Assembly (NCBI RefSeq): GCF_001424755.1
Contig: NZ_LMRF01000002.1
Coordinates: 75,556 to 139,555, forward strand
Length of the DNA: 64,000 nt
Source: Marmoricola sp. Leaf446
GTDB lineage: Bacteria > Actinomycetota > Actinomycetes > Propionibacteriales > Nocardioidaceae
Direction: 5' to 3'
Below the pieces are notes generated by a model. It searched no databases. It worked only from the letters and a program-made list of their open reading frames with translations, and was not told the DNA's origin. The translations under genes were made by a program, and so were the position numbers. Of this stretch, positions 8,664 through 33,347 are shown one piece after another. Position 1 is the stretch's first letter. The number at the start of each line of letters is the position of its first letter.

Positions 8664-9878
8664 ATGGCAACTGATGCGTTCGTCTACGACGCCGTCCGCA
8701 CCCCGCGAGGCAAGGGGAAGAAGAACGGCACCCTGCACGAGGTGAAGCCGGTCGACCTGGTGGTCGGCCTCCTCGAGGCGGTCCAGGAGCGCAACCCCTC
8801 CCTCGACGCGAACCGCGTGGACGACGTCGTGCTCGGCGTCGTCTCGCCGGTGGGAGACCAGGGCGGCGACATCGCGAAGACCGCGGCGCTGGCCGCCGGC
8901 CTGCCCGAGACCGTCGCGGGCGTGCAGCTCAACCGCTTCTGCGCCTCCGGTCTCGAGGCCGTCAACCAGGCCGCCTCCCGCGTCCGCGGCGGCTTCGAGG
9001 ACCTCATCCTCGCCGGCGGCGTGGAGTCGATGAGCCGGGTGCCGATGGGCAGCGACGGCGGCGCCTGGGCCATGGACCCCGCCACCGCGTTCGCCACCGA
9101 CTTCGTGCCGCAGGGCATCGGCGCCGACCTGATCGCGACCCTGGAGGGCTTCAGCCGCGCCGACGTCGACACCTTCGCGGTGGAGTCCAACGCCCGAGCC
9201 GCCAAGGCCTGGGCCGACGGGCGCTTCGCCCGCTCGGTGGTCCCGGTGCGCGACCGCAACGGCATGGTCGTGCTCGACCACGACGAGTTCATCAAGCCCG
9301 AGTCGACCGTCGAGGGCCTGGCCAAGCTGCGTCCCTCGTTCGCCGGCATCGGCGAGCAGGGCGGCTTCGACTCCGTGGCTCTGGAGAAGTACCACTGGGT
9401 CGAGCGCATCGACCACGTCCACCACGCCGGCAACTCCTCGGGCATCGTCGACGGTGCCGCGCTGGTGGCGATCGGCAACGAGCAGGTCGGCTCCGACCTC
9501 GGGCTGACCCCCCGCGCGCGCATCGTCTCGGCCGCCGTCTCCGGCGCCGACCCGACGATCATGCTCACCGGTCCCGCCCCCGCGAGCCGCAAGGCGCTGG
9601 CCAAGGCCGGTCTCAAGGTCGAGGACATCGACCTGTTCGAGATCAACGAGGCCTTCGCCGCGGTCGCGATGCGGTTCATGCGCGACATGGGCATCTCCGA
9701 GGAGGTCACCAACGTCAACGGCGGCTCGATCGCCATGGGCCACCCGCTGGGCGCCACCGGCGCGATGATCCTCGGCACCCTGATCGACGAGCTCGAGCGC
9801 CGCGACCTCAAGCGCGGCCTGGCCACGCTGTGCGTCGGTGGCGGCATGGGCATCGCCACCATCGTCGAGCTGGTCTGA
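8664..9878 (+). CDS. fadA: Acetyl-CoA C-acyltransferase (3-ketoacyl-CoA thiolase)
   Basis: Thiolytic step of beta-oxidation: 3-ketoacyl-CoA plus CoA gives acetyl-CoA and a shortened acyl-CoA. Protein of 404 residues. The acylated Cys is in [10 protein letters not shown] (about residue 93), the catalytic His in [10 protein letters not shown] (about 358) and the second Cys in CVGGGMG near the C-terminus; INEAF is also present. ATG 8664 lies about 78 bases after the predicted -10. The inverted pair AGTTG / CAACT (8651-8672) brackets the start codon and could fold over it. The fadB-like gene follows after 41 bases, giving a complete trifunctional-type enzyme pair. Confidence 0.93.
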
Positions 9879-9919
9879 GCCGTCGTACGCCGCCCCTCCC
9901 CTTCTCGAACAGGACCCCG

Positions 9920-12097
9920 ATGACTGACTCCGCAGTGAAGTACGACCGCGACGCCGACGGCGTCGTGACCCTCACCCTCGACGACCCGCAGTCGAGCGCC
10001 AACACGATGAACGAGCGCTACAAGAACGGCATGCACGCGGCGATCACACGGCTCGTGGCCGAGAAGGACGAGGTGCGCGGCGTCGTCGTGGCCTCGGCCA
10101 AGAAGACCTTCTTCGCCGGCGGCGACCTCAAGGGCATGGTGACCACCACCCGCGAGGACGCCGAGTCGGTGTTCCGCGAGGTCGAGCAGGTCAAGGCCGA
10201 CCTGCGTCGCCTGGAGACCCTCGGCAAGCCCGTCGTGGCCGCCATCAACGGGGCGGCGCTGGGCGGCGGCCTGGAGATCGCGCTGGCCTGCCACCACCGG
10301 GTCGCGGTCGACGGGCGCTACGAGATCGGCCTGCCCGAGGCGACCCTGGGCCTGCTGCCCGGTGGCGGCGGCGTCACCCGCACGGTGCGGATGTTCGGCA
10401 TCCAGACGGCGCTGATGGACGTCCTGCTCCAGGGTCCCCGGATGAAGCCGGCCAAGGCCAAGGACAAGGGCCTGGTCGACGAGCTGGTCGCGAGCCAGGA
10501 CGAGCTGCTCCCGGCCGCGCGCGCCTGGGTGCTCGCCCACGCCGACGACGAGACCCCCTCGGCCAACCCCTGGGACCGCGAGGGCTACAAGCTGCCCGGC
10601 GGCACGCCCAGCAACCCCAAGCTCGCGGCGTTCCTGCCCGCGTTCCCCGCGATGCTGCGCAAGCAGGTCAAGGGCGCCGACTACCCCGCGCAGCGCGCGA
10701 TCATGTCGGCGGCCATCGAGGGCGCCCAGGTCGACTTCGACACCGCCAGCCGGATCGAGTCGCGCTACCTGGCCGAGCTGATCACCGGGTCGAACAGCAA
10801 GAACATGATCCAGGCGTTCTTCTTCGACCTCTCCGCCATCAACGGCGGCTCGCTGCGCCCCGCCGGCGTGGAGAAGTTCACCGCCACCAAGGTCGGCGTG
10901 CTCGGCGCCGGGATGATGGGCGCCGGCATCGCCTACTCCTGCGCCCGCGCCGGCATGCAGGTCGTGCTCAAGGACGTCGCCCAGGAGTCGGCCGACCGCG
11001 GCAAGGCCTACAGCGAGAAGATCCTCGCCAAGGCCGTCGAGCGCGGCCAGCTCGACGAGGCCAAGAAGGCCGAGGTCCTCGACCGGATCACCGCGACCAC
11101 CGACCCGGCCGACTTCGCCGGCGTCGACCTCGTCATCGAGGCCGTCTTCGAGGACCCCGCCCTCAAGGCCCAGGTGTACGCCGAGATCCAGTCGGTCGTG
11201 AGCCCGGACGCGCTGCTGTGCTCCAACACCTCGACGCTGCCGATCACCGAGCTGGCCAAGGCCGTCGACCGGCCGGCCGACTTCGTGGGCCTGCACTTCT
11301 TCTCGCCCGTGGACAAGATGCCGCTCGTGGAGATCATCCGCGGCGAGCAGACCTCCGACGAGACCGTGGCCCGTGCGCTCGACGTCGTCCAGGCGATCAA
11401 GAAGACGCCGATCGTGGTCAACGACAGTCGCGGCTTCTACACCAGCCGCGTCATCGGCACGATGGTCAACGAGGGCCTGGCGATGCTGGGCGAGGGCGTC
11501 CACCCGACCTCGGTCGAGCGGGCCGCCACCCAGGCGGGCTACCCCGTCGGCACGCTGCAGCTCTCCGACGAGCTCAACATGGAGCTGATGGCCAAGATCG
11601 CCAAGGCCACCGCCGACGCCGAGGGCGAGTCCTACACCGCCCACCCGGCCTCCCACGTAGTGCAGACCATGATCGACGAGGGTCGCCCCGGTCGGCTGCG
11701 GGGCGCGGGCTTCTACGACTACGACGAGAGCGGTCGGCGCACTCACCTGTGGTCGGGCCTGAAGGACCTCTTCCCGCCCGCCGACGAGCCCGCCGACATC
11801 GACGACCTCAAGGACCGCTACCTGTTCATCGAGGCGCTCGAGACCGCGAAGTGCTTCGAGGAGGGCGTCATCTCCTCGGCCGCCGCGGCCAACATCGGCT
11901 CGATCATGGGCATCGGCTACCCGCCCCTGACCGGCGGCACCGTCCAGTTCATGCAGGGGTACGACGGCCCGACCGGCCACGGCCTCGCCGGCTTCGTCGA
12001 GCGCGCCGACCAGCTGACCAAGCTCTACGGCGACCGCTTCGCCCCCACCGACCGGCTGCGCGAGATGGCGGCGAAGGGGGAGACCTTCCCCGCCTGA
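9920..12097 (+). CDS. fadB: 3-hydroxyacyl-CoA dehydrogenase/enoyl-CoA hydratase fusion (beta-oxidation alpha subunit)
   Basis: Bifunctional enzyme, 725 residues, carrying out hydration of enoyl-CoA and NAD-dependent oxidation of 3-hydroxyacyl-CoA. An N-terminal crotonase domain (about 1-200) has the oxyanion segment [11 protein letters not shown] and the Glu-bearing [14 protein letters not shown]. The Rossmann domain starts near residue 325 with [12 protein letters not shown] and carries SNTSTLPIT and [15 protein letters not shown] with the catalytic His. A C-terminal 3HCDH domain follows. The length fits actinobacterial FadB. ATG 9920 is preceded by AGGA; the frame upstream to 9830 overlaps fadA and is not convincing. 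It lies with fadA under the shared operator. Confidence 0.93.
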
Positions 12098-15080: not shown

Positions 15081-16811
15081 GTGCTGCGCCTGGTCGCCCT
15101 CGTCCTGGTCGTGGCCGTCGCGGTGCTCGCCTACCAGGCCACCCGCACCGGCCTGGCCCTGCGACAGGCCGCGGTCGACGCCACCACCCTCCGCGCCGAG
15201 CTGGGGGAGCGCGACCTCGCCGCCGCCGAGCGCACCTCGAGGTCGCTCGCGGCCCGGGCCCACGTCGCCCGGAAGCACTCGGACGGGTTCCTGTGGGCCG
15301 CCGCCACCGCGTTGCCCGTCGTCGGGGACGACGCCGACGCCGTACGGCGGGTGGCCGCGGCCCTCGACGAGCTGAGTGCGCGAGCCCTGCCCGGCTCGCT
15401 GGACGCCGCCCGCGCGCTGCAGCGCGATCCGCTGCGAGGCGACGACGGGGCCTTCGACCTCGCCGCCCTGCGAGCCCTCCGGGCGCCGGTGACGCAGGTG
15501 AGCCGGTCCGTACGACGTGCCGACGCCCGTCTCGAGGACGTCGACGTCGCCGACCTGGCGGGCCCGATCCGCCCCCGGGTGGCCGAGGTCAAGGACCAGG
15601 TCGCACGGCTCGACACCGCGATGCTCGCCGCGGCGACCGCGACCGAGGTGCTCCCGGCGATGCTGGGCGGTGACGGCGAGCGGCGCTACCTGCTGGTGGT
15701 GCAGAACAACGCCGAGGTCCGGGGCACGGGTGGCCTGCCCGGCTCGGTCTCGGTGCTCCGGGTGCGCGACGGTCGGCTGACGCTCGGACGGCAGGGCTCG
15801 GCCGCCGACGCCGGGCCTCCGGGGAGCCCGCCGGCCGGGTCGCTGACGCCGGACGAGGGTCGCCTGTTCGGGCAGCAGATGGTCACGGACTTCCGCGACG
15901 CCAACACCACGCCCGACTTCCCGCGGGCGGCCTCCCTCATGGCCGAGATGGCCTCGCGGACGCTCGGCCCCCCGGTGGACGGCGTGGTCTCCCTCGACCC
16001 GGTCGTGCTGAGCGCGCTGCTCGAGGGCACCGGCCCGGTGCAGGCCCCGGGCGGACGGCTGGACGCCGACAACGTGGTCCGCAAGGTGCTGTTCGAGCCC
16101 TACCAGGAGCTGCCCCCGGAGGGTGGCGTCCAGGACGCCTACTTCGCCGCCACCAGCGCGGCCGTCTTCGACGCGCTGACCGGCGGCACGCTCGACGAGA
16201 GCACCGTGCTGGCGGGACTCGCCGCGGGGGCCCAGGACCGCCGGGTGCTGGTCTGGAGCAGGCGTCCGGCCGAGCAGGACCGGTTGCAGCGGGCGGGGCT
16301 GGCGGGCGCGGTGCCGCGCGACACCGGTGACCGACCCGCTGTCGGGTTCTACCTCAACAGCGGCACCCAGGCGAAGATCCAGTACTTCCTGCGCTACGGC
16401 GGCCGGGTCCGGTCGCTCGGGTGCACCGAGGACGGCCGGCAGGTGGTGCAGGCACGGTTCGCGATGCGGTCGGAGGTCCCCACCCCGGTCTCGCAGCTCG
16501 CCCCCTACGTCAGCGGCCTGGGCGACGAGGCCGAGCCCGGCGTCAACCTGGTCAACCTGGCGATGTACGCCCCGACGGGTGGCACCCTCACCGCGCTGCG
16601 CGTGGGCGGGGAGGCGGCGCAGGTGGCCACCGGCACCATCGACGACCGCGACGTGGCGGTGGTCCCGGTCGAGCTGGCCCCCGGCGAGCGGACCGAGGTG
16701 GTCGCCGACTTCACCACGCGTCGCGGGCAGGACGGCGACCCGGTGATGCAGTGGACCCCCGGGCTCGCCGCGGGCGCGACCCAGGCCGTGGCGACGAGTC
16801 GCTGCGGCTGA
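15081..16811 (+). CDS. DUF4012 domain-containing membrane-anchored protein
   Basis: Protein of 576 residues with one N-terminal membrane helix (LRLVALVLVVAVAVLAYQA) and a long extracytoplasmic part. The segment NNAEVRGTGGLPGSVSVL (about residue 210) and the later FEPYQELPPEGG are landmarks of DUF4012 proteins, which occur near exopolysaccharide and cell-surface loci in actinobacteria but have no established activity. Residues about 20-150 look helical and may form a coiled coil. GTG 15081 is the only plausible start after the last upstream stop; its ribosome-binding site is weak and no cytoplasmic tail precedes the helix, so the true start could differ. Confidence 0.78.
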   Translation: MLRLVALVLVVAVAVLAYQATRTGLALRQAAVDATTLRAELGERDLAAAERTSRSLAARAHVARKHSDGFLWAAATALPVVGDDADAVRRVAAALDELSARALPGSLDAARALQRDPLRGDDGAFDLAALRALRAPVTQVSRSVRRADARLEDVDVADLAGPIRPRVAEVKDQVARLDTAMLAAATATEVLPAMLGGDGERRYLLVVQNNAEVRGTGGLPGSVSVLRVRDGRLTLGRQGSAADAGPPGSPPAGSLTPDEGRLFGQQMVTDFRDANTTPDFPRAASLMAEMASRTLGPPVDGVVSLDPVVLSALLEGTGPVQAPGGRLDADNVVRKVLFEPYQELPPEGGVQDAYFAATSAAVFDALTGGTLDESTVLAGLAAGAQDRRVLVWSRRPAEQDRLQRAGLAGAVPRDTGDRPAVGFYLNSGTQAKIQYFLRYGGRVRSLGCTEDGRQVVQARFAMRSEVPTPVSQLAPYVSGLGDEAEPGVNLVNLAMYAPTGGTLTALRVGGEAAQVATGTIDDRDVAVVPVELAPGERTEVVADFTTRRGQDGDPVMQWTPGLAAGATQAVATSRCG

Positions 16812-16865: not shown

Positions 16866-18134
16866 ATGGACTTCTCACCGTCGGACCGGGCCGCCGAGCT
16901 GACCGAGCGGGTGAGGGCCTTCGTCACCGATCGCATCGAGCCGGTCGCCGCGGCGTACCACCGCGAGGTGAGCCGGCAGGCCGACCCGGCGCGGTGGCAG
17001 GAGTCGCCGCTCCTCGACGAGCTGCGGGCCCAGGCCCGCGAGCAGGGCCTGTGGAACCTCTTCCTCCCGGCGGGGCACGGCGACGCGTGGGCGCAGGAGT
17101 ACGGCACGGCCGGCGGCCGTGGCCTGACCAACGCCGACTACGCCCCGCTGGCCGAGCAGATGGGCCGGGTCTCCCACCTCGCGCCCTACGTCTTCAACTG
17201 CCACGCGCCCGACACCGGCAACATGGAGGTGCTGCTGCGCTACGGCTCGCCGGAGCAGCAGGACCAGTGGCTGCGCCCGCTGCTCGACGGGCAGATCCGC
17301 TCCGGCTTCGCGATGACCGAGCCCGGGGTCGCCTCCTCCGACGCCACCAACATGGACGCCAGCGCGATCCTCGACGGCGACGAGGTCGTGGTGAGCGGCC
17401 GCAAGTGGTGGACCAGCGGCGTGGGCCACCCCGACTGCCGGGTGCTGGTCTTCATGGGCCGCTCGGTGCCCGAGGACGACACCGAGACCGACCGGCACCG
17501 CCGCCACACGATGGTGCTCGTGCCCCTCGACGCGCCCGGCGTGAAGGTCGAGCGGCTGCTGACCACGATGGGCGTCCAGGACGAGCCGGTGGGCCACGCC
17601 GAGGTCTCCTTCGACCAGGTCCGGGTGCCGCGCGAGAACGTCCTGCTCGGCGAGGGCCGCGCCTTCGAGATCGCCCAGGGCCGGCTCGGACCCGGCCGGG
17701 TGCACCACTGCATGCGGCTGATCGGGCAGGCCGAGGTCGCCCTCGACCTGGCCGTGCGCCGCGGGCTGGCCCGCCAGGCCTTCGGCAAGCGCATCATCGA
17801 CCTCGGCGGCAACCGCGAGCGGGTGGCCGAGGCCCGGATGGCGATCGACCAGGCCCGGCTGCTCGTGCAGCACGCCGCCTGGAAGCTCGACACCGCGGGC
17901 CCCGCGCACTCCCTCGGCGAGGTCAGCCAGATCAAGGTGGTCGTGCCGCGGATGGCGCAGGACGTCATCGACATGGCGATGCAGCTGCACGGCGGCGGCG
18001 GGCTCTCCGACGACGTCCCGCTCGCCGGCATGTGGACCACCGCCCGGGCGCTGCGCCTGGCCGACGGCCCCGACGAGGTCCACCGCGGCGTCGTCGCCCG
18101 GCTCGAGCTCGCCAAGCACCGGGACGCCCGATGA
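16866..18134 (+). CDS. Acyl-CoA dehydrogenase of the ACAD10/ACAD11 type
   Basis: FAD-dependent acyl-CoA dehydrogenase, 422 residues. An N-terminal helical domain is followed by the FAD segment GFAMTEPGVASSDATNMD and the substrate-side KWWTSGVGHP; the C-terminal part has QLHGGGGLSDD and LADGPDEVHRG. These last two and the domain lengths match the ACAD10/11 branch rather than medium-chain enzymes. In Pseudomonas the related LvaC works with the kinase LvaA to turn 4-hydroxyacyl-CoA into 3-hydroxyacyl-CoA through a 4-phospho intermediate. The APH-type kinase two genes downstream suggests the same chemistry; that is inference. The stop codon overlaps the next ATG. Confidence 0.88.
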   Translation: MDFSPSDRAAELTERVRAFVTDRIEPVAAAYHREVSRQADPARWQESPLLDELRAQAREQGLWNLFLPAGHGDAWAQEYGTAGGRGLTNADYAPLAEQMGRVSHLAPYVFNCHAPDTGNMEVLLRYGSPEQQDQWLRPLLDGQIRSGFAMTEPGVASSDATNMDASAILDGDEVVVSGRKWWTSGVGHPDCRVLVFMGRSVPEDDTETDRHRRHTMVLVPLDAPGVKVERLLTTMGVQDEPVGHAEVSFDQVRVPRENVLLGEGRAFEIAQGRLGPGRVHHCMRLIGQAEVALDLAVRRGLARQAFGKRIIDLGGNRERVAEARMAIDQARLLVQHAAWKLDTAGPAHSLGEVSQIKVVVPRMAQDVIDMAMQLHGGGGLSDDVPLAGMWTTARALRLADGPDEVHRGVVARLELAKHRDAR

Positions 18135-18916
18135 GCCGCGTCCTGGTCACCGGCGGGGCGGGCGGGCTCGGGGCCGCGCTGGCCGCGGCGTACCGCTCCC
18201 GGGGCGACGACGTCGTCGTGGCCGACGTGGCCGACGTGGCCGACGACCCCGGCACCGGACCGTTCCTGCACCTCGACGTCCGCTCCGACGACGACTGGGC
18301 CGCGGCCCGGGCGTGGGTCGAGCAGGAGTGGGGCGGCCTCGACGTGCTGGTCAACAACGCCGGCGTCGCCGGCGGCGGCCGGCTCGACGTGGCCACGCTC
18401 GAGGAGTGGCAGTGGATCACCGAGGTCAACCTCTTCGGCGCGGTCCGCGGCACCCGCACCTTCGTCCCGCTGCTCAAGCAGCAGGGGTCCGGCCTGATCG
18501 TCAACGTCGCCTCGCTCGCGGGGCTGGTGCACCCGGCCGGGATGGGCTCCTACAACGCCGTCAAGGCCGCGGTCGTGGCGCTGAGCGAGACCACCGGGCA
18601 CGAGCTCGCGGAGTTCGGGGTGCGGTGCGCGGTCGTGTGCCCGTCGTACTTCCGGACCGGGCTGGTGGCCAGCCTCCGCGGCGCCGACCAGCTGCTGGAG
18701 CCGCTGATGCGCAGGCTGGTCGACCACGCCCCGCTCGGGGCCGACGACATCGCCGCGGAGGTGCTCGCGGGCCTCGACCGTGGCGACGAGGTGATCCTGC
18801 CCGACCCGGCGGCGCGGGCAGCGTACGAGTTGAAGCAGACCGACCGGACGGCGTACGACGAGACCATGCGGCGGCAGGCCTCGCGCCTGCACGACATGGG
18901 ACGGGAGCAGGGATGA
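18131..18916 (+). CDS. SDR family oxidoreductase in the ACAD11-like operon
   Basis: Short-chain dehydrogenase, 261 residues. The cofactor loop is VTGGAGGLGAALA, strand 2 ends VVVADVADVADD (acidic, so NAD(H) is favoured), NNAGV is followed by Ser in VNVASLAG and YNAVK. The C-terminal part ends in an Arg-rich tail. It could oxidise or reduce a hydroxyacyl or ketoacyl intermediate handled by the neighbouring dehydrogenase and kinase. ATG 18131 overlaps the upstream stop codon (ATGA), and the next gene overlaps its own stop in the same way, so the three are translated as a unit. Confidence 0.85.
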   Translation: MSRVLVTGGAGGLGAALAAAYRSRGDDVVVADVADVADDPGTGPFLHLDVRSDDDWAAARAWVEQEWGGLDVLVNNAGVAGGGRLDVATLEEWQWITEVNLFGAVRGTRTFVPLLKQQGSGLIVNVASLAGLVHPAGMGSYNAVKAAVVALSETTGHELAEFGVRCAVVCPSYFRTGLVASLRGADQLLEPLMRRLVDHAPLGADDIAAEVLAGLDRGDEVILPDPAARAAYELKQTDRTAYDETMRRQASRLHDMGREQG

Positions 18917-19989
18917 GCGAGCAGGGGACCACGCTGGAGGGCGCCAGCCCGGTGCGCGAGGAGGACGCCTTCGACCTCGACGCCGTGCGCCGGTGGCTGG
19001 CCGAGCAGGGCACCGAGCTGGGCGAGGAGGTGGAGGTGCAGCAGTTCGGGGGCGGTGCCTCCAACCTGACCTACTCGCTGCGCGACGGACGCCACGACCT
19101 GATCCTGCGGCGGCCCCCGGCCGGCCAGAAGGCCAAGGGCGCCCACGACATGACCCGCGAGCACCGCGTCCAGGAGGGGCTGGCCGGCGTCTTCCCGCTG
19201 GTCCCGCGCATGATCGCGCTGTGCACCGACGAGTCGGTCATCGGCGCCGACTTCTACGTCATGGAGCGCGTCGACGGGGTGATCCCGCGGCGCGACTTCC
19301 CGCCCGGCCTGGATCTCGACGAGGCGCAGGTGCGGCAGCTGTGCACCAACGCGCTCGACGTGCTGGTCGAGCTGCACGCCGTCGACGTCGACCAGACGCC
19401 GCTGGCGGCGATGAACAAGGGCGACGGCTACGTCGAGCGCCAGGTCTCCGGCTGGTCCCGCCGCTTCCGCGACGCCCGCACCGAGGACGTGGGCGACTAC
19501 GAGGAGGTGATGGGCTGGCTGGAGGAGCACCGTCCCGCCGACGTGGGCCACTGCCTGATCCACAACGACTTCCGCTTCGACAACCTGGTGCTCGACCGCG
19601 ACGACCCGACCAAGGTCGTGGGCGTCCTCGACTGGGAGATGGCCACGGTCGGCGACCCGCTGATGGACCTCGGCGGCACGCTGGGCTACTGGGTGCAGGC
19701 CGACGACGACGACTTCTTCCTGCAGTTCCGCCGCCAGCCCACGACGGCGCCGGGGATGCTGACCCGCCAGGAGGTCGTCGACTACTACCTCGAGCGCACC
19801 GGCCGCACGGTCACCGCCGACGAGTGGCGCTTCTACGAGGTCTTCGGGCTGTTCCGGCTCGGTGTCATCGCCCAGCAGATCTACTACCGCTACTTCCACG
19901 GCCAGACCACCAACGAGGTGTACGCCGGCTTCGGTCCTGCGGCGCGCTACCTCGAGCAGCGCTGCCGCGCGATCATCGCGGCCGGCTGA
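18913..19989 (+). CDS. APH-family phosphotransferase, ACAD10/11 kinase-domain homologue
   Basis: Aminoglycoside-phosphotransferase fold, 358 residues, most like the kinase half of human ACAD10/ACAD11 and Pseudomonas LvaA. The ATP-site segment is QFGGGASNLTYSL with LILRRPP (Lys replaced by Arg at the usual position). The catalytic loop is LIHNDFRFDNLVL (Asp as base, Asn as metal ligand) and VLDWEMATVGDP supplies the DFG-like Asp. A drug-resistance role is unlikely. The family phosphorylates the 4-hydroxyl of hydroxyacyl-CoA. In animals this domain is fused to the dehydrogenase; here they are separate but co-transcribed. Confidence 0.85.
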   Translation: MSEQGTTLEGASPVREEDAFDLDAVRRWLAEQGTELGEEVEVQQFGGGASNLTYSLRDGRHDLILRRPPAGQKAKGAHDMTREHRVQEGLAGVFPLVPRMIALCTDESVIGADFYVMERVDGVIPRRDFPPGLDLDEAQVRQLCTNALDVLVELHAVDVDQTPLAAMNKGDGYVERQVSGWSRRFRDARTEDVGDYEEVMGWLEEHRPADVGHCLIHNDFRFDNLVLDRDDPTKVVGVLDWEMATVGDPLMDLGGTLGYWVQADDDDFFLQFRRQPTTAPGMLTRQEVVDYYLERTGRTVTADEWRFYEVFGLFRLGVIAQQIYYRYFHGQTTNEVYAGFGPAARYLEQRCRAIIAAG

Positions 19990-19991
19990 GC

Positions 19992-20684
19992 GTGGGCCAG
20001 CTGCTGCTCGTCCGGCACGGCCAGGCCTCCTGGGACGCCGACGACTACGACGTGCTGTCCCCGTCCGGCTGGGAGCAGGGACGGGTCCTGGGCCGTGCGC
20101 TGGCGTCCCGCGGCGTCGTGCCCGACCGGGTGGTGCGGGGCTCGATGCGTCGCCACCGTGAGACGACCGAGGCGGCGCTCGGCGAGCTCCCGGGTGCACC
20201 CTCGGCCGCCGACGTCGCCGTCGACCCCGCGTGGGACGAGTTCGACCACGTCGCGGTGCTCGAGGGCATGCCCCGGTCGGAGACGGGACCGCCGGCCGAG
20301 GCGCCCACCGACAAGCGCGGCTACCAGGCGCTGCTCGAGACGGCCCTGGAGTCGTGGATGCTCCCCGAGCACGCCGACCGCTACGCCGAGCCGTTCGCCG
20401 CGTTCACGTCGCGGGTCGACGACGCGCTGCGGCGTACGACCCAGGACGGCGCACCCGGCACCACGGCCGTCGTCACCTCGGGCGGCGCGATCGCCTGGGT
20501 GACCGCGAGCCTGCTCGCCGACGGCGACCCCGAGCTCGCGACCCGGCTGTGGCGCAAGCTCAACGTCGTCTGCGTCAACTCCGGCCTGACCCGCCTGGTG
20601 GTGGGCCGACGCGGCACGACGCTGGTCACCTTCAACGACCACGCCCACCTCGACGGGATGCCGGAGCTGACGACCTACCGCTGA
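19992..20684 (+). CDS. Histidine phosphatase family protein
   Basis: Phosphoglycerate-mutase-like fold, 230 residues. LLVRHGQAS carries the phosphorylated His near residue 9, and an Arg (RGSMRRHRETT) lies at the expected distance. The second catalytic His, normally in a (S/T)HGG motif, is replaced: the sequence reads VVTSGGAIAW. Some bacterial members have this Ser form, so activity may be altered rather than lost. GTG 19992 is two bases after the kinase stop codon, placing it last in the operon; it might hydrolyse a phospho-intermediate. It is followed by a large palindrome facing the MMPL gene. Confidence 0.8.
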   Translation: MGQLLLVRHGQASWDADDYDVLSPSGWEQGRVLGRALASRGVVPDRVVRGSMRRHRETTEAALGELPGAPSAADVAVDPAWDEFDHVAVLEGMPRSETGPPAEAPTDKRGYQALLETALESWMLPEHADRYAEPFAAFTSRVDDALRRTTQDGAPGTTAVVTSGGAIAWVTASLLADGDPELATRLWRKLNVVCVNSGLTRLVVGRRGTTLVTFNDHAHLDGMPELTTYR

Positions 20685-20833: not shown

Positions 20834-22918
20834 CTAGCTGCGCGACCCGCCCACGACGACGTCGTCGGCGCGCTCCCGCGCGTGGTCCGGGCCGACCTTC
20901 CGCGGCCACCAGAACCGGTCGCCCAGCAGCAGCGCGAGGGCCGGGACGAGCACGGTGCGGACCAGCAGGGTGTCGAGCAGCACGCCGATGCAGATGACCA
21001 CACCCAGCTGCGCGAGCACCACCAGCGGCAGCACGCCGAGCACCGCGAAGACCGCCGCCAGCAGCACGCCGGCGCTGGTGATGACGCCGCCGGTCGCGGC
21101 CAGCGCACGCAGCATCCCCTCCCGAGGGCCGTGCAGCCGAGCCTCCTCGCGGGTCCGGGTGACCAGGAAGATGTTGTAGTCGACGCCCAGCGCGACCAGG
21201 AACAAGAAGGCCAGCAGCGGCATCCCCTGGTCGATGCCGGAGAAGCCGAGCAGCCCGGAGAAGACCCACCAGCCGACGCCGAGCGCCGCGGCGTACGTCG
21301 CCAGGACGGTGAGCACGAGCAGCACCGGCGCTACCACCGCCCGCAGCAGGAGCAGCAGCGCCCCGAGCACGAGCAGCAGCACGAGCGGGAAGATCACCAG
21401 CCGGTCGCGGGCCGAGGCGTCGGCGAGGTCGACGGCCTCGGCGGTCGCACCGCCGACGTAGGTCGAGTCCACCCCGTCCAGCGCCGTGCGCATCCGCTCC
21501 ACCGTCGCCTCCGCGGCCTCGGAGTCGGGGGCATCGGCGAGCACCACGCTGAGCTCGGTCCAGCCGTCACCCTCCCCACCCGGGGTCACGGACTGCACGC
21601 CGTCGAGGCCGTCGAGGGCGGACCGGGCCGCCTCGGGGTCCTTCGTGACCACGGTCGCCGGGTCGGAGCTGCCGGCGGGGAAGGACTCGGCCAGCCGCTC
21701 GCCGGCCGAGATCGCCTCGGGCGTCTGCAGGAACTGCTCGGCCGTGGGCAGCCCGAGTCGGGCGACGCCCAGGCCGGAGGCGAGCAGGGCGAGAGCGACG
21801 ACGGTGCCCACGGCGAACAGGGCCGTACGCCGCGCCACCGCGTCGCCGACCCGGCGCCACAGCGAGTGGCCCTCGGCCAGCGAGGCGGTCCCGACGTGGG
21901 GCACCCGCGGCCAGAACACCCAGCGACCGCAGGCGACCAGCAGCCCGGGCAGGGCGCCGAGCACGAACAGGACGGCGACGACGATGCCGACCGCGCAGGC
22001 GATGCCGAGGCCGCGGGTGGTGGGGACCAGCGACAGCGCGAGGCAGAGCACGCCCACCACGACGGTGGTGGCGCTGGCGAAGACCGCCTCGGCCGTACGC
22101 CGCAGCGCCAGCCGCATCGCCTCGTAGCGGTCCTCGTGGGAGCGCAGCTCGTCTCGGTAGCGCGAGATCAGCAGCAGCGCGTAGTTGGTGCCGGCGCCGA
22201 AGACGAGCACCGAGAGGATGCCGGTGGTCGACTCGTCCCAGGGGACGACGAGCTCCTTGAGCGCCCGGGTCGCGAGCACCGCGGCGGTCTGGTCGGCGAT
22301 GCCGACGACGGCGAGGGGCACCAGCCACAGCACCGGGCTGCGGTAGGTGATGACGAGCAGGATCGCCACCACGCCGGCGGTGGTGGCGAGCAGCCGGACG
22401 TCGGCGCCGTCGAAGACGGCCGCGAGGTCGGCCTGGATGCCGGCCGGGCCGGTGACCTCGGCGGTGACGCCGTCGGGCACGGCCGCGTCGAGGGCGTCGC
22501 GCAGGTCGCCGACGGCCGCGGCGGTGCCGGTGGCGTCGTTCGCACGCACCGGCAGCACGCTGATCGCCGCGGTGCCGTCCTCCGCGGCCACCAGCGCCTG
22601 CGGTCCGTCCGGCACCTCGACCCGGTCGACGTTGAGCCCGGCCACGGCCTCGCGCAGCGCGCCGACCTGGGCGTCGTCGAGCTCGCCGTTGTCGTCGCGC
22701 GTGAACAGCGCGATCGCGGTCGAGCCGTCCTCCTGCGGCAGCGTGTCGCGCACCTGGGCGGCGCGGGTGCTGTCGGTGCCGGCGGGCAGGGCGTCGTCGA
22801 CCGCGCTGTCGCGGGTCGCCTGGCCGAGGCCGGCGATGGTGAGGACGCCGAGCACGAGCAGCAGCAGGCCGACGAGGAAGCTGGCGCGGTTCACGAGGAA
22901 CCGACGGAGGGTGGCCAC
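20834..22918 (-). CDS. MMPL family RND transporter
   Basis: Membrane exporter, 694 residues, of the mycobacterial MmpL/YdfJ class: twelve predicted helices in two halves, each half opening with one helix and a large extracytoplasmic loop. TM1 is ASFLVGLLLLVLGVLTIAG. The first loop holds DALPAGTDSTRAA, and the helix bundles contain GAGTNYALLLISRYRDEL and LGVDYNIFLVTRTREEA, the two Asp/Tyr-bearing stretches expected for proton coupling. Family members move lipids or drugs. GTG 22918 has AGGAGC seven bases upstream. It is transcribed away from the MarR gene, which is probably its repressor. Confidence 0.9.
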   Translation of the reverse strand: MATLRRFLVNRASFLVGLLLLVLGVLTIAGLGQATRDSAVDDALPAGTDSTRAAQVRDTLPQEDGSTAIALFTRDDNGELDDAQVGALREAVAGLNVDRVEVPDGPQALVAAEDGTAAISVLPVRANDATGTAAAVGDLRDALDAAVPDGVTAEVTGPAGIQADLAAVFDGADVRLLATTAGVVAILLVITYRSPVLWLVPLAVVGIADQTAAVLATRALKELVVPWDESTTGILSVLVFGAGTNYALLLISRYRDELRSHEDRYEAMRLALRRTAEAVFASATTVVVGVLCLALSLVPTTRGLGIACAVGIVVAVLFVLGALPGLLVACGRWVFWPRVPHVGTASLAEGHSLWRRVGDAVARRTALFAVGTVVALALLASGLGVARLGLPTAEQFLQTPEAISAGERLAESFPAGSSDPATVVTKDPEAARSALDGLDGVQSVTPGGEGDGWTELSVVLADAPDSEAAEATVERMRTALDGVDSTYVGGATAEAVDLADASARDRLVIFPLVLLLVLGALLLLLRAVVAPVLLVLTVLATYAAALGVGWWVFSGLLGFSGIDQGMPLLAFLFLVALGVDYNIFLVTRTREEARLHGPREGMLRALAATGGVITSAGVLLAAVFAVLGVLPLVVLAQLGVVICIGVLLDTLLVRTVLVPALALLLGDRFWWPRKVGPDHARERADDVVVGGSRS

Positions 22919-22940
22919 GGAGTAGGCTCCTGGTGTCTCG

Positions 22941-22956
22941 GTTGATGACTAACTAA
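22941..22956. promoter_or_regulatory. Candidate MarR operator in the divergent MMPL/marR gap
   Basis: The 38-base divergent gap contains an AT-rich stretch. GTTGATGACTAAC (22941-22953) is a partial dyad (GTT..TGA..AAC), and AGTGAGC repeats at 22956 and 22973. Assignment to the adjacent MarR protein rests on position. Confidence 0.35.
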
Positions 22957-23421
22957 GTGAGCAATCTAGTGAGCGAAGATAGCAGGTGGACGGACGCCTG
23001 GGAGCAGACCTCCTCGCTGCTGGCGCTGCGGGAGCTCACCCGGCTCGCAGAGCAGGTCGCCCCGGCGGTGGCCAACCGCGCCGGGCTGACCCACAACGAG
23101 CTGCGCACGCTCGAGCACCTCGTCGAGGGCCCGATGGGTCCCGGCGAGCTGAGCCGCGTCCTCGGCGTCAGCTCGGCCGCCTCGTCGGGCATCATCGACC
23201 GGCTCGAGGCCCGGGGGCACGCCAGGCGCGTCAGCCACGCCAGCGACGGCCGGCGTACGTCGGTGACGATCAGCGACTCCGGCCGCGCCGAGGTCGTGGG
23301 TCACCTGATGCCGATGTTCCGCGAGCTCGCCGAGCTCGACGCCGGCCTCACCGACGCCGAGCGCGAGGTGGTCACGCGCTACCTGCGCGGGGCGGCTCGG
23401 GCGATGCGGACGGTGACCTGA
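22957..23421 (+). CDS. MarR family transcriptional regulator
   Basis: Dimeric winged-helix repressor, 154 residues. The DNA-binding part includes LTHNELRTLEHLVEGPMGPG, then LSRVLGVSSAASSGIIDRL (recognition helix) and the wing RVSHASDGRRTSVTIS. Helices at both ends form the dimer interface. The gene is divergent from the MMPL transporter with 38 bases between start codons, the classic layout for a ligand-released efflux repressor. GTG 22957 is used; a second in-frame GTG lies four codons further. The stop codon is one base before a strong hairpin. Confidence 0.87.
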   Translation: MSNLVSEDSRWTDAWEQTSSLLALRELTRLAEQVAPAVANRAGLTHNELRTLEHLVEGPMGPGELSRVLGVSSAASSGIIDRLEARGHARRVSHASDGRRTSVTISDSGRAEVVGHLMPMFRELAELDAGLTDAEREVVTRYLRGAARAMRTVT

Positions 23422-26667: not shown

Positions 26668-29600
26668 GTGCCCCTGCTCCTCCACCGCGCCCCGCGGGCC
26701 GACGCGCTCGCCGACGGCCTCGCGGCGCTGCTCGCCGAGCCGCCGGAGGACCCGTTCGCCCCGGAGCTGGTGATCGTCCCGGCGCGGGGCGTCGAGCGGT
26801 GGCTCAGCCAGCGGCTCTCCCACCGGGTCGGGGCCGCACCGGGGCGGGAGGACGGCCTGTGCGCCGGCGTCGAGCTGCGCTCGCCCGCGAGCCTGGTCGG
26901 CGAGGTGCTCGGCACCACCGAGGACGACCCGTGGTCGCCCGACGCGCTCGTCTGGCCGCTGCTCCAGGTCGTCGACGAGGCGGCGGGCGAGCCCTGGTGC
27001 CAGACGCTGAGCCTCCACCTCGGGCACGAGCACGAGGGCGAGGAGCGCGAGCTGCGTCGGGGCCGTCGCTACGCCACGGCGCGGCGGCTCGCGCGCCACC
27101 TCGCGGCGTACGCCGTGCAGCGCCCGTCGCTGCTCACCGACTGGGAGGCGGGCCGCGACACCGACGGCGCCGAGGGAGTGCTCGACCCCGACCTCACCTG
27201 GCAGCCCGAGCTGTGGCGGCGGCTGGTCGCCCGGGTGGGGGCGCCGTCGCCGGTGGTGCGGCACCGCGAGGTCTGCGACGCGCTGGGCTCGGGCGAGCTG
27301 GACCCCGACCTGCCGGCCCGGCTCTCGCTGTTCGGCCACACCCGGCTGCCGGTCACCGAGGTGCGGCTGCTCGCGGCGCTCGGCGAGCGCCGTGAGGTCC
27401 ACCTCTGGCTGCCGCACCCCTCCCCGGCGTCGTGGGCGGCCCTCACCGACCTCACCGGTTCGGTGGCCCGTGACGACGACCCCGCCCGGCGCCGGGTGCA
27501 CCACCCGCTGCTCGCCTCGCTCGGCCGGGACCTGCGCGAGCTGCAGCGCTCGCTGCAGGAGGTCGGCCCCCTCGACGTCACGTCAGCGACGGAGGACCCG
27601 GCGGGTCCGGGGGAGACGACGCTGCTCGGCTGGTTGCAGGCCGACCTCGCCGCCGACCGCTCCCCCGACGAGGCCGGGCTCGACCGGGTGCTGCGCGGGG
27701 ACGACCGCAGCGTCCAGGTCCACGCCTGCCACGGTCCGGCCCGCCAGGTCGAGGTGCTCCGTGAGGTGCTCCTCGGGCTGCTCGCCGACGACCCGACCCT
27801 GGAGCCGCGCGACGTCGTGGTGATGTGCCCCGACATCGAGGCCTACGCCCCGCTCGTCTCCGCCGCCTTCGGGATGGGGGAGATCGGCAGCCACCCCGGC
27901 CACCGGCTGCGCGTGCGGCTCGCCGACCGTTCGCTGACCCAGACCAACCCGCTGCTCGCCGTGGTGGAGCGCCTGCTCGACCTGGCCGGGGGCCGGGCCG
28001 AGGCCAGCGTGGTGCTCGACCTGCTGGCGACCGAGCCGGTGCGCCGTCGCTTCGGGCTCACCGAGAGCGACCTGGAGACCCTCACCGACTGGGTCGAGAA
28101 GGCCGGGGTGCGCTGGGCCTTCGACGGCGAGCACCGCCGTGACTTCGGCCTCGAGCGGTTCGTGCAGAACACCTGGCGATTCGGGATCGACCGGGTGCTG
28201 ACCGGGGTGGCGGTGAGCGACGACGCCGACCGCTACTTCGGCGCCACGCTGCCGCTCGACGACGTCGGCTCCACCAGCATCGACCTCGCCGGCCGGCTGG
28301 CCGAGGCCCTCGACCGGGTGCAGCGCCTGGCCGGGGCGCTCACCGGCAGCCACCCGGTCGACCACTGGCTGACCACGATCGGCCGTGCGGTCGAGGAGCT
28401 GACGCTCGTGCCCCGGGGCGAGGAGTGGCAGACCGCGCAGGTCCACCGCGAGCTTGCCCAGGTGCTCGACGCCAGCGCCCGCTCCTGGGCCGGCGACCTC
28501 GAGCTGCGGCTGCCCGACGTGCGCTCCCTGATGGCCGAGCGGCTGGCCGGGCGCCCCACCCGCGCCAACTTCCGCACCGGCACCCTCACCGTCGCCACGA
28601 TGGTGCCGATGCGCTCGGTGCCCCACCGGGTGGTGTGCCTGCTCGGGCTCGACGACGGCTCCTTCCCCCGCGTGGGGGCGGTGGACGGCGACGACGTGCT
28701 GGCCCGGCGCCCGCTCACGGGGGAGCGCGACGTCCGCAGCGAGGACCGCCAGCTGATGCTCGACGCCGTGGTCGCGGCCACCGAGCACCTCGTGGTGACC
28801 TACACCGGGGCCCACGAGACGACCGGCGCCCCGCGTCCTCCGGCCGTGCCGCTGGGCGAGCTGCTCGACGCCGTGGAGCTGACCGTCCCCGGCGGGCGCG
28901 ACCACGTGCTCCGCTCCCACCCGCTGCAGGCCTTCGACCAGGACAACCTGGTCCCGCCGCGCCCGTTCTCCTTCGACGGCGCCGCCCTCGCCGGGGCGCG
29001 CGCAGCGGCCCGGCCCCGGGAGGCGCCGCCCGCCCTGGCCGGGGCGGTGCTGCCGCGTCCGGGGGGCGACGTCGAGCTCGCCGAGCTGTCGGCCTTCCTG
29101 CGCCACCCGGTCCGTCACTTCCTGCGCCGGCGGCTCGAGGTGGCCCTGCCCGACGAGGGCGAGGAGGTCACCGACGGGCTGCCCGTCGACCTCGACGGAC
29201 TGCAGCAGTGGCAGGTGGGGGAGCGGCTGCTGGCCGACCTGCTGCTGGGCCGCACCCCGGGACAGGCGCGCGACCGCGAGTGGCGCCGGGGCGTGCTGCC
29301 GCCGGGCCGCCTCGGCTGGGACCTCGCCAAGCGACTGGCCGACCAGGCGCTGCCGGTCGCCGAGCTGGTCGACTCGGTGACGCAGGGCCAGCGCGCGACC
29401 GCGCGCGACGTCGACGTCGACCTCGGCGACGGCCGCCGGCTGCGCGGCACGGTGACCGGCATCCACGGCACCCGGGTGGTGCGCCACAGCTACTCCCGGC
29501 TCGGTCCGCGGCACTACCTCGACGCCTGGGTCCCGCTCCTCGCGCTGTGCGCCGACAGCCCCGGCCGCGGCTGGACCGCGGGCTCGGTGGGTCGGGGCCG

Positions 29601-29973
29601 CTTCCGCAGCCAGCCGACCGCCCGGGCCGCCTTCGCGCCCGTCGAGGAGGCCACCGTCCGGCTGCGCGAGCTGGTCGCGATCTACGACGCGGGCACCGCC
29701 GCGCCGCTGCCGCTGCCGCTCCGGACCGGCCACGCCTGGGCCGCCAACCCGCGCGCGGCGCGCCCCAAGGCCGAGGCCGAGTGGTCGCGGGCGCGGTTCG
29801 GCCCGGAGTGCGAGGACGAGGCCCACGTCCGGGTCTGGGGGGCCGACGCCCCGCTCGCGCGGCTGCTCGAGCAGCGTCCGCTGTCCGGCGAGGAGCGCGA
29901 GGGCCAGACCACGCGGCTCGGCGCGCTCGCCACCACGCTGTGGCGCCCCGTCCTGGATCGGGCGCGGTCGTGA
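26668..29973 (+). CDS. recC: Exodeoxyribonuclease V subunit gamma (RecC)
   Basis: Inactive-helicase and scaffold subunit of RecBCD, 1101 residues, which splits the DNA strands and scans for the recombination signal. Recognisable stretches are the opening PLLLHRAPRADALADGLA, VPARGVERWLSQRLSHRVG near residue 40, VHACHGPARQVEVLREVLL near 350, VVMCPDIEAYAPLV, and TVATMVPMRSVPHRVVCLLG followed by LDDGSFPR near 650. The C-terminal third carries the degenerate nuclease-like fold. The length matches actinobacterial RecC. The stop codon overlaps recB as GTGA. Confidence 0.93.
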   Translation: MPLLLHRAPRADALADGLAALLAEPPEDPFAPELVIVPARGVERWLSQRLSHRVGAAPGREDGLCAGVELRSPASLVGEVLGTTEDDPWSPDALVWPLLQVVDEAAGEPWCQTLSLHLGHEHEGEERELRRGRRYATARRLARHLAAYAVQRPSLLTDWEAGRDTDGAEGVLDPDLTWQPELWRRLVARVGAPSPVVRHREVCDALGSGELDPDLPARLSLFGHTRLPVTEVRLLAALGERREVHLWLPHPSPASWAALTDLTGSVARDDDPARRRVHHPLLASLGRDLRELQRSLQEVGPLDVTSATEDPAGPGETTLLGWLQADLAADRSPDEAGLDRVLRGDDRSVQVHACHGPARQVEVLREVLLGLLADDPTLEPRDVVVMCPDIEAYAPLVSAAFGMGEIGSHPGHRLRVRLADRSLTQTNPLLAVVERLLDLAGGRAEASVVLDLLATEPVRRRFGLTESDLETLTDWVEKAGVRWAFDGEHRRDFGLERFVQNTWRFGIDRVLTGVAVSDDADRYFGATLPLDDVGSTSIDLAGRLAEALDRVQRLAGALTGSHPVDHWLTTIGRAVEELTLVPRGEEWQTAQVHRELAQVLDASARSWAGDLELRLPDVRSLMAERLAGRPTRANFRTGTLTVATMVPMRSVPHRVVCLLGLDDGSFPRVGAVDGDDVLARRPLTGERDVRSEDRQLMLDAVVAATEHLVVTYTGAHETTGAPRPPAVPLGELLDAVELTVPGGRDHVLRSHPLQAFDQDNLVPPRPFSFDGAALAGARAAARPREAPPALAGAVLPRPGGDVELAELSAFLRHPVRHFLRRRLEVALPDEGEEVTDGLPVDLDGLQQWQVGERLLADLLLGRTPGQARDREWRRGVLPPGRLGWDLAKRLADQALPVAELVDSVTQGQRATARDVDVDLGDGRRLRGTVTGIHGTRVVRHSYSRLGPRHYLDAWVPLLALCADSPGRGWTAGSVGRGRFRSQPTARAAFAPVEEATVRLRELVAIYDAGTAAPLPLPLRTGHAWAANPRAARPKAEAEWSRARFGPECEDEAHVRVWGADAPLARLLEQRPLSGEEREGQTTRLGALATTLWRPVLDRARS

Positions 29974-32900: not shown

Positions 32901-33347
32901 GGCGACCAGCTGCTGCGCGGCTACCTCAGCGGCTCGATCGACGTGGTGCTGCGGGTCGGCGAGGGGGCCGAGCAGCGCTTCGTGGTGGTCGACTACAAGA
33001 CCAACCGGCTGGGTGAGCCGGGTGCCCCGATCACCGCCCTCGACTACGCCCCGGCCGCGCTCGACGCCGCGATGCTGCACTCCCACTACCCGCTCCAGGC
33101 GCTGCTCTACTCCGTGGTGCTGCACCGCTACCTGCGCTGGCGGCTGCTCGGCTACGACCCGGAGGTCCACCTCGGCGGGGTGCTCTACCTCTACCTGCGC
33201 GGCCTCTGCGGACCGGAGACCCCGCGCGTCGACGGCGTGCCCTGCGGCGTCTTCAGCTGGCGGCCGCCGGCCGCGCTGGTCGTCGAGCTCTCCGAGCTGC
33301 TCGACGGCCGACCCGATCCGGTGCCGACCCCGGGAGGGGCGCGATGA
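29970..33347 (+). CDS. recB: Exodeoxyribonuclease V subunit beta (RecB helicase-nuclease)
   Basis: 3'-to-5' SF1 helicase and only nuclease of RecBCD, 1125 residues. Walker A is EASAGTGKTWAVG (about 30-42), motif II VLVDEFQDTDPVQW, motif III GDPKQAIYAFRGGD (about 300), motif V IHASKGLQYPVVYLP (about 618) and motif VI LTYVALTRAQSQV. The C-terminal nuclease keeps the metal-binding VVDYKTNRLG (about 1006), so cleavage should be intact. An acidic linker around residues 790-830 (DERDGAEDDLPATP) separates helicase from nuclease. GTG 29970 overlaps the recC stop codon; the longer upstream frame lies inside recC. Confidence 0.94.
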   Translation: MSAPTAGTPVRPAPTPFDPLGELPTGTALLEASAGTGKTWAVGALVTRYVAEGRARLDELLVITFGRAASQELRERVREQLVAAERALADPVAARAAGGLTGLLAGADDDEVAQRRERLRQALADFDGATIATTHQFCQQVLRSLGVAGDTDTGAELVEQLDDLVVEVVDDLFLARYGDLARPPFTREVALGVARVATGDPQSLLVAEGAEGSPAVERRDFGEAVRAELERRKRRRGVLSYDDLLSRLRDALRHPDSPARARMQHRWHTVLVDEFQDTDPVQWQVLDLAFGGAATMVLIGDPKQAIYAFRGGDVVTYLDAAGTAVEHRTLATNWRSDAPLVDALQALLGGAELGDPRITVHPVAAHHATSRLTGAPRPAPLRLRVVDGPSGESGGGTLSVDAARRHVATDLADDVAALLGSGARHDGEPLQPEHLAVLVYSLRHVELFQRALAAKGVASVVHGGSSVLLTEAGREWLTLLEALEQPHRAARVRSVALGPFVGLTPTALDAGGEDVTDEVGERVRRWLDLVRARGIAAVHEAVVADGLAERVLARPDGERLLTDLHHLGQVLHDEAHREGLGVTGLLEWLRSERRAAVGSNARTRRLDTDARAVQLVTIHASKGLQYPVVYLPLAFNKWVPDDEVPLFHDAEGHRTRDVGGTRDGRSVRRHREEQAGEELRLTYVALTRAQSQVVAWWAPTRDSVNAGWSRLLLGRTPGSPTVATRLDAVPGPREARQAFERWEQAGALVVEDSVPTGAPALPPGEGTPRLDVRRFDRTVDTDWRRTSYSGLIRAEEQAATPGTDGATTETEPELAGTTDERDGAEDDLPATPAPAREDAADLPSPMDGLPAGATLGSLVHGVLEHADPAAPDLLAELELRVEQERRWWAVETPTPELAQALLPSQHTPLGPLVGDRTLADIGLRDRLRELDFEIPLAGGDRPGAQVPLAAMADVLRRHLPADDPMRPYAERLEAPGLGDQLLRGYLSGSIDVVLRVGEGAEQRFVVVDYKTNRLGEPGAPITALDYAPAALDAAMLHSHYPLQALLYSVVLHRYLRWRLLGYDPEVHLGGVLYLYLRGLCGPETPRVDGVPCGVFSWRPPAALVVELSELLDGRPDPVPTPGGAR

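Follow-up and report, generated by a model that had tools for sequence, protein, structure and literature searches.

Operon structure and main finding

The locus at positions 16866-20684 of the window (the whole stretch of 64,000 nucleotides from Marmoricola sp. Leaf446 analyzed here) raises the question of why a histidine phosphatase (HP) with an altered pocket should be encoded directly behind a dehydrogenase and a kinase related to animal ACAD10/ACAD11. The answer we favor, with a probability of roughly 0.58, is that the operon encodes a bacterial, split version of the ACAD10/ACAD11 route, in which HP would be a dedicated partner and most likely still an enzyme, clearing stalled phospho-acyl-CoA. 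Within this reading, the sequences of the kinase and the dehydrogenase give good support to a split ACAD10/11 (LvaA/LvaC-like) route.

The four genes are all on the plus strand, in the order ACAD-SDR-APH-HP. They encode an acyl-CoA dehydrogenase of the ACAD11/LvaC type with Acyl-CoA_dh domains (ACAD; 16866..18134, 422 aa, ATG start), a classical short-chain dehydrogenase/reductase (SDR; 18131..18916, 261 aa; adh_short, 145 bits), an APH-fold kinase of the ACAD11 type (APH; 18913..19989, 358 aa; APH, 174.5 bits) and a branch 1 histidine phosphatase of an atypical subfamily (HP; 19992..20684, 230 aa, GTG start). The ACAD/SDR and SDR/APH junctions are ATGA overlaps, and the GTG start of HP is found 2 bases past the APH stop; the ACAD11-type dehydrogenase and kinase genes lie together in one operon. 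A preliminary description of this DNA had already reported such a cluster, and its coordinates, overlaps and 2-base gap were all recovered, as were its four domain assignments when compared with Pfam, while its listing of APH before SDR had to be corrected. For all four proteins, the NCBIfam models listed stayed under their cut-offs (for SDR, 25 of 209 were listed). The four-gene arrangement is more than chance, the same order recurring in distant bacteria.

Dehydrogenase and kinase

In the structural database, the best matches of ACAD were PDB 4hr3 (548 bits) and ACAD11 (2wbi, 380 bits), whereas the best ordinary acyl-CoA dehydrogenase scored 126.5 bits. Residues 272-284 form the motif GRLGPGRVHHCMR, and the presumed catalytic residue, Asp400, is an Asp instead of a Glu and lies within LADGPDEVH. 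R626, R631, H634, R637 and D753 of ACAD11 are reported to take part in 4-phosphoacyl-CoA binding and catalysis (PMC12440821). By alignment, the same residues are present in the stretches GRLGPGR[VI]HHCMR and ADGPDEVH of ACAD. Among the window ACAD and those of 45 loci at no less than 38% identity, R273 and D400 were kept in 46/46 and R278, H281 and R284 each in 45/46. A second dehydrogenase of the ACAD11 type was found elsewhere in the genome (C6:409667-410845, corresponding to 5626-6912 of L195). It is 47% identical to ACAD, with HVMR for HCMR and with FDGPDEVH, and no match to the window APH was found within the 12 kb read around it.

The kinase gave 256 bits with 9o56, 176 with 3dxp and 158 with the kinase domain of ACAD11 (E-value 3e-45), as against 41 bits (1e-9) for the next APH-fold chain. 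It is hence not of the unrelated APH kind, the outcome named in the preliminary description as speaking against a 4-hydroxyacyl-CoA route. A HNDxxxDN catalytic loop, DWE, R82-E83 and R176 were identified, and D219, N224 and R176 correspond to D220, N225 and R176 of ACAD11, as counted on the alignment. The Arg ahead of the alpha-C Glu is likewise kept, although its published number, R86, did not fit the alignment count. All five of D219, N224, R82, E83 and R176 were retained in 48/48 kinases.

The locus therefore combines a dehydrogenase with the Arg...HCMR motif and an Asp at the catalytic position with a kinase closest to the ACAD11 kinase domain and equipped with the catalytic Asp, the catalytic Asn and the CoA-binding Arg, i.e. 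the features by which a split ACAD10/ACAD11 (LvaA/LvaC) system is recognized. The likeness to LvaA/LvaC was drawn from published descriptions, the sequences having been compared with ACAD11 and PDB chains. The chemistry would be that described for relatives, as separate bacterial kinase and ACAD orthologues carry out the reaction on 4-hydroxyhexanoyl-CoA (PMC11342911). Scores and diagnostic residues together make a 4-hydroxyacyl-CoA route the best reading of ACAD and APH.

SDR and substrate

The SDR contains, within SYNAVKAA, what we take to be the YxxxK motif, and it scores 262 bits with the NCBIfam family PRK05650, under the cut-off of 297. It would probably act as a 4-oxo/4-hydroxyacyl-CoA oxidoreductase, like LvaD. 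In the proposed route, the SDR would reduce a 4-oxoacyl-CoA, or interconvert two 4-hydroxy isomers through the ketone, after which the kinase would use ATP to phosphorylate the 4-hydroxyl of the 4-hydroxyacyl-CoA. Phosphate would then be eliminated by the dehydrogenase in a FAD reaction that is redox-neutral and yields a 2-enoyl-CoA for beta-oxidation. HP, with Ser for the second His, would most likely hydrolyze phospho-acyl-CoA or free phospho-acid that is left unconsumed by the dehydrogenase (wrong isomer or chain, lost CoA), and would in this way keep dead ends from building up.

No CoA ligase, transporter or regulator resembling lvaE/F/G/R was found among the operon neighbors scanned, and the substrate is therefore not fixed by the neighborhood. 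The same phosphorylate-and-eliminate chemistry might be directed at some other acyl-CoA, e.g. a longer, branched, terpenoid or lactone-derived one, or one with its hydroxyl on another carbon, and this would be compatible with either role of HP discussed below. The SDR, with scores under the cut-offs of each of the 25 NCBIfam families listed, fits such a substrate as well, but the window ACAD does not differ from ACAD11 at the residues linked to the 4-phospho group, and we regard this alternative as unlikely.

The phosphatase and its altered pocket

HP matches PF00300 (His_Phos_1) at 61.2 bits, with a cut-off of 21.7, and has the RHG motif and fold of branch 1. Its AlphaFold2 model (pLDDT 94.7) was matched best in Foldseek by PGAM5 (3o0t, E=6.2e-11, about 21% identity), while GpgP was the best match by sequence profile (E=1.1e-7). 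A full branch 1 pocket consists of two Arg and two His. In HP, the second His is replaced by Ser163, as VVTSGG of the window aligns with VAHGG of GpgP; the changed second His that had been noted in the preliminary description is thereby confirmed. Judged by its fold and the three other pocket residues, HP is a divergent branch 1 relative, for which a phosphatase function is not assured.

The replacement is not peculiar to this genome. In 81 sequences (80 loci and the window), Ser occupied the second-His position in 81/81, and R8, H9, R54 and E83 were likewise identical in 81/81; Ser was also found in 36/36 alignment rows, window copy included, and in 26/26 complete copies of another set, which again kept R8, H9, R54 and E83 (L282 is incomplete), although the three sets may share genomes. 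RHGQAS and Asn215 are nearly constant. HP thus belongs to a distinct subfamily, with Ser for the second pocket His in every complete copy examined, and the idea that it is a recent decay product of its own genome was rejected on the same grounds. Five other histidine phosphatases of the Marmoricola genome, obtained by script from seven loci tried (two were not recovered), have His at this position. Nor was it supported that a C-terminal His universally stands in for the lost one, since residue 217 is His in 65/81 and residue 219 in 79/81, and both are more variable among the 26 complete copies.

As the nucleophile and the acid of enzymes of this kind are both retained in HP, an active enzyme is favored, and the constancy of R8, H9, R54 and E83 points to retained catalysis. 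The fourth pocket residue is missing, however, so a regulatory role must also be considered, in which HP would be a non-catalytic partner of the kinase (or the dehydrogenase) that binds or senses phospho-acyl-CoA and either inhibits or activates the kinase. The Ser present in 81/81 and 26/26 copies fits such a partner, while the equally invariant Arg8, His9, Arg54 and Glu83 do not, invariant catalytic residues being unusual for a pseudoenzyme.

Linkage to kinase and dehydrogenase genes

The best 80 of 582 HP loci in a scan of named genomes were searched with profiles for partner genes within about 6 kb, some loci being cut by contig ends. A kinase was found at 47/80, an ACAD11-type dehydrogenase at 44/80, both at 36/80 and either at 55/80, and kinase, dehydrogenase and a window-like SDR occurred together at 26/80. 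The start of HP, as given by the profile envelope, was at most 60 nt from the kinase stop in 44 of the 45 cases measured, and overlapped with it in 30/45, a tight coupling that would also suit a regulator of the kinase. On the other hand, HP adjoins a dehydrogenase with no kinase seen nearby at eight loci (seven hp-ac and one ac-hp) and at L236 and L249, which is less easily reconciled with that role. At four further loci (L072, L107, L139 and L146), HP has as its neighbor an SDR that shares 43-51% identity with that of the window, with neither kinase nor ACAD found nearby.

In the family to which the window belongs, HP was matched at E<=1e-15 in 162/197 genomes, and 24/29 of the best HP loci (window excluded) had a kinase within the 1.5 kb flank. 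Linked HP loci were distributed over Actinomycetota, alpha-, beta- and gammaproteobacteria, one myxobacterium and an Acidobacteriota bin, which we take to represent four phyla. Public annotation of plasmid records shows ACAD-SDR-APH-HP in Ideonella dechloratans and Pseudoalteromonas and ACAD-APH-HP-SDR-SDR on an Azospirillum plasmid, while Deinococcus radiodurans has ACAD followed by APH-HP; kinase and HP of these loci were matched by tblastn, ACAD by annotation only. Rearranged versions of the gene set were present in the Acidobacteriota bin. A plasmid of Cupriavidus oxalaticus (L156 5989-11937) carries in a row a kinase (39% identical), an acyl-CoA dehydrogenase, an SDR-like gene, a CoA-transferase and an AMP-binding gene, with no HP.

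A strictly actinobacterial system was rejected on account of the linked sets in Pseudomonadota, Myxococcota and the Acidobacteriota bin. Of the "actinobacterial 4-hydroxyacyl-CoA route" first proposed, the route stands as the best reading, whereas the restriction to actinobacteria does not. Neither is the phosphatase an unexpected extra member, as had been supposed, with 55/80 of the best HP loci having a kinase and/or an ACAD11-type gene and the change from His to Ser extending over the whole subfamily.

Co-occurrence across genomes

Co-occurrence was analyzed in two samples, in neither of which relatedness was corrected for. In 369 genomes from the class of a Marinobacter locus (L145; ACAD at E<=1e-90, HP profile at E<=1e-10), ACAD was found in 39, HP in 27 and both in 23, meaning that ACAD was present in 23/27 genomes with HP, as against 16/342 others (odds ratio 117, Fisher p=2.6e-22). 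Of the four genomes with HP but no such ACAD, G862 (L265) carries an ACAD match of lower score next to its HP. Among 296 genomes of Actinomycetota (ACAD at E<=1e-60, HP at E<=1e-20), ACAD was found in 121 and HP in seven, with ACAD in 7/7 genomes with HP and in 114/289 others.

Where HP is unlinked, all of the genomes (25/25) carry a dehydrogenase of the ACAD11 type elsewhere, and in 15/25 it adjoins a kinase, 14 of these pairs being of a second clade (33-39% identical) and that of G1113 being of the same clade as the window (60%). ACAD and kinase genes are on opposite strands in G1133. A kinase at E<=1e-50 was missing from 8/25. Second-clade adjacent pairs with HP elsewhere, their kinase 36-39% identical to that of the window, were seen in G1114, G1115, G1117, G1118, G1121, G1123, G1125, G1128, G1131, G1132 and G1135.

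These data also bear on another alternative, namely an ordinary acyl-CoA dehydrogenase set next to which an APH protein of unrelated kind and a phosphatase lie by chance. The folds of APH, SDR and HP are widespread, the Marmoricola genome alone having 9 matches to APH and 11 to His_Phos_1, and HP of the window's subfamily is often found alone, i.e. unlinked to kinase and ACAD at 25/80 of the best loci. Still, the ACAD11-type motif and scores, the linkage and co-occurrence of the HP subfamily and the second His kept by the five other phosphatases of the genome all speak against it, and we consider it very improbable; a chance neighbor in particular was judged unlikely given the high linkage and co-occurrence, albeit without relatedness correction.

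Several observations nevertheless count against a split ACAD10/ACAD11 route with HP as its dedicated partner, among them the 25/80 unlinked loci. HP is not obligatory, as 16/39 genomes with an ACAD11-type dehydrogenase in the class of L145 are without it, and among the 30 best kinase loci, that of the window counted, 16 had it in their 1.5 kb flanks. At the six other HP loci of the Actinomycetota scan, no kinase, SDR or ACAD lies nearby (0/6), and among 20 HP loci read with wider flanks, eight had a kinase and 12 did not. No ACAD11-type kinase at E<=1e-50 was found in 11/33 genomes whose HP has no nearby kinase. The 25/25 result carries little weight alone, the best ACAD match being 49-54% identical in 21/25 and this ACAD type occurring in 121/296 Actinomycetota. 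To these points are added the neighborhood devoid of lva-like genes in the part scanned, and the pocket of HP, which lacks a usual residue and is also compatible with a non-catalytic partner. An active phosphatase and a regulatory partner are close rivals, the latter nearly as likely.

Genomic neighborhood

A DUF4012 gene (15081-16811), on the same strand as the operon, ends 54 nt ahead of the ACAD start, and co-transcription is possible. Downstream, at 20834-23421, an MMPL-family transporter gene (minus strand, convergent with the operon) is followed by a MarR regulator gene (plus strand). Farther upstream, at a distance of about 4.8 kb, a thiolase gene (8664-9878) precedes a gene for a FadB-like enoyl-CoA hydratase/3-hydroxyacyl-CoA dehydrogenase (ORF 9830-12097, Pfam run on 9920-12094), both on the same strand as the operon, and these enzymes could take the 2-enoyl-CoA product of the operon. 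The window also contains a RecC-like gene (26668-29973) and a RecD-like gene (33344-35161).

Implications

How ACAD10/11 break down 4-hydroxy acids became clear only in 2024-2025, and both the route and bacterial split kinase/ACAD pairs are already known (PMC11342911). What appears new is the four-gene unit with its frequent, pocket-altered histidine phosphatase, whose breadth was not found described in the open-access literature searched. HP as a general feature of ACAD11-type systems was likewise not found described there, with PMC6692424 alone among the papers listed reporting a case. That a phosphatase accompanies an ACAD11-type dehydrogenase across several phyla suggests that the bacterial pathway has a component so far overlooked, and it bears on the question of how cells handle a phosphorylated acyl-CoA when elimination stalls; the HP-containing operon offers a simple model for experiments on regulation or repair. 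Annotation could be sharpened as well for genes that are at present labeled no more precisely than histidine phosphatase, phosphotransferase family protein or acyl-CoA dehydrogenase.

Comparison with known systems

Compared with branch 1 histidine phosphatases at large (PGAM5, PhoE, GpgP, CobC), HP shares the fold and the RHG motif but is only about 15-21% identical (Foldseek rows), and has Ser for the second His.

The Lva operon of Pseudomonas putida (LvaA/LvaB/LvaC/LvaD) resembles the window operon in encoding kinase, ACAD-family enzyme and SDR as separate proteins of a single operon, and its pathway runs from 4-oxo- to 4-hydroxyacyl-CoA, 4-phosphoacyl-CoA and enoyl-CoA (PMC6692424, PMC11342911). 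In contrast, the window operon leaves no room for lvaB between its genes and has HP. As lvaB beside lvaA together with lvaE/F/G/R marks the lva (levulinate) operon, and the nearest neighbors here are the DUF4012, MMPL and MarR genes, it was not classed as an lva operon. No LvaB-containing operon was recognized by eye among some ACAD loci inspected.

Another counterpart is the lva region of Pseudomonas citronellolis LA18T, which includes the two genes of this strain most upregulated on levulinate. As described by Habe et al. (2019, PMC6692424), it has an LvaA homologue, a histidine phosphatase gene adjoining it, an LvaC homologue and an SDR, and no lvaB. By ORF number its phosphatase lies between kinase and dehydrogenase, unlike in the window, and transporter, ligase and regulator genes adjoin. 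Its authors suggested that the phosphatase may remove phosphate from 4-phosphovaleryl-CoA and called for functional analysis. The absence of lvaB can also be read in favor of a regulatory HP, which might take the place of LvaB, the P. putida protein that was shown by pulldown to bind LvaA (PMC6692424).

Animal ACAD10/ACAD11 share with the window operon the two predicted activities, the ACAD motif and the kinase catalytic residues. They differ in that kinase and dehydrogenase are fused in animals and separate in the window, which also adds the SDR. ACAD10 furthermore has a phosphatase-fold domain of its own, an incomplete HAD domain, where the window counterpart has the histidine phosphatase fold. 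One DxD Asp is absent from this domain, which restrains the kinase and whose phosphatase activity was negligible, a result for which the paper does not present the data (PMC11342911). It is a precedent for HP as a regulator, a role that we hold to be possible at clearly less than even odds. In its most specific and more tentative form, HP would be a sensor and brake on phospho-acyl-CoA in bacterial ACAD10/11-type pathways, replacing LvaB and having evolved independently of the ACAD10 HAD domain. If so, a damaged phosphatase fold would have been recruited twice to police the same metabolite kinase.

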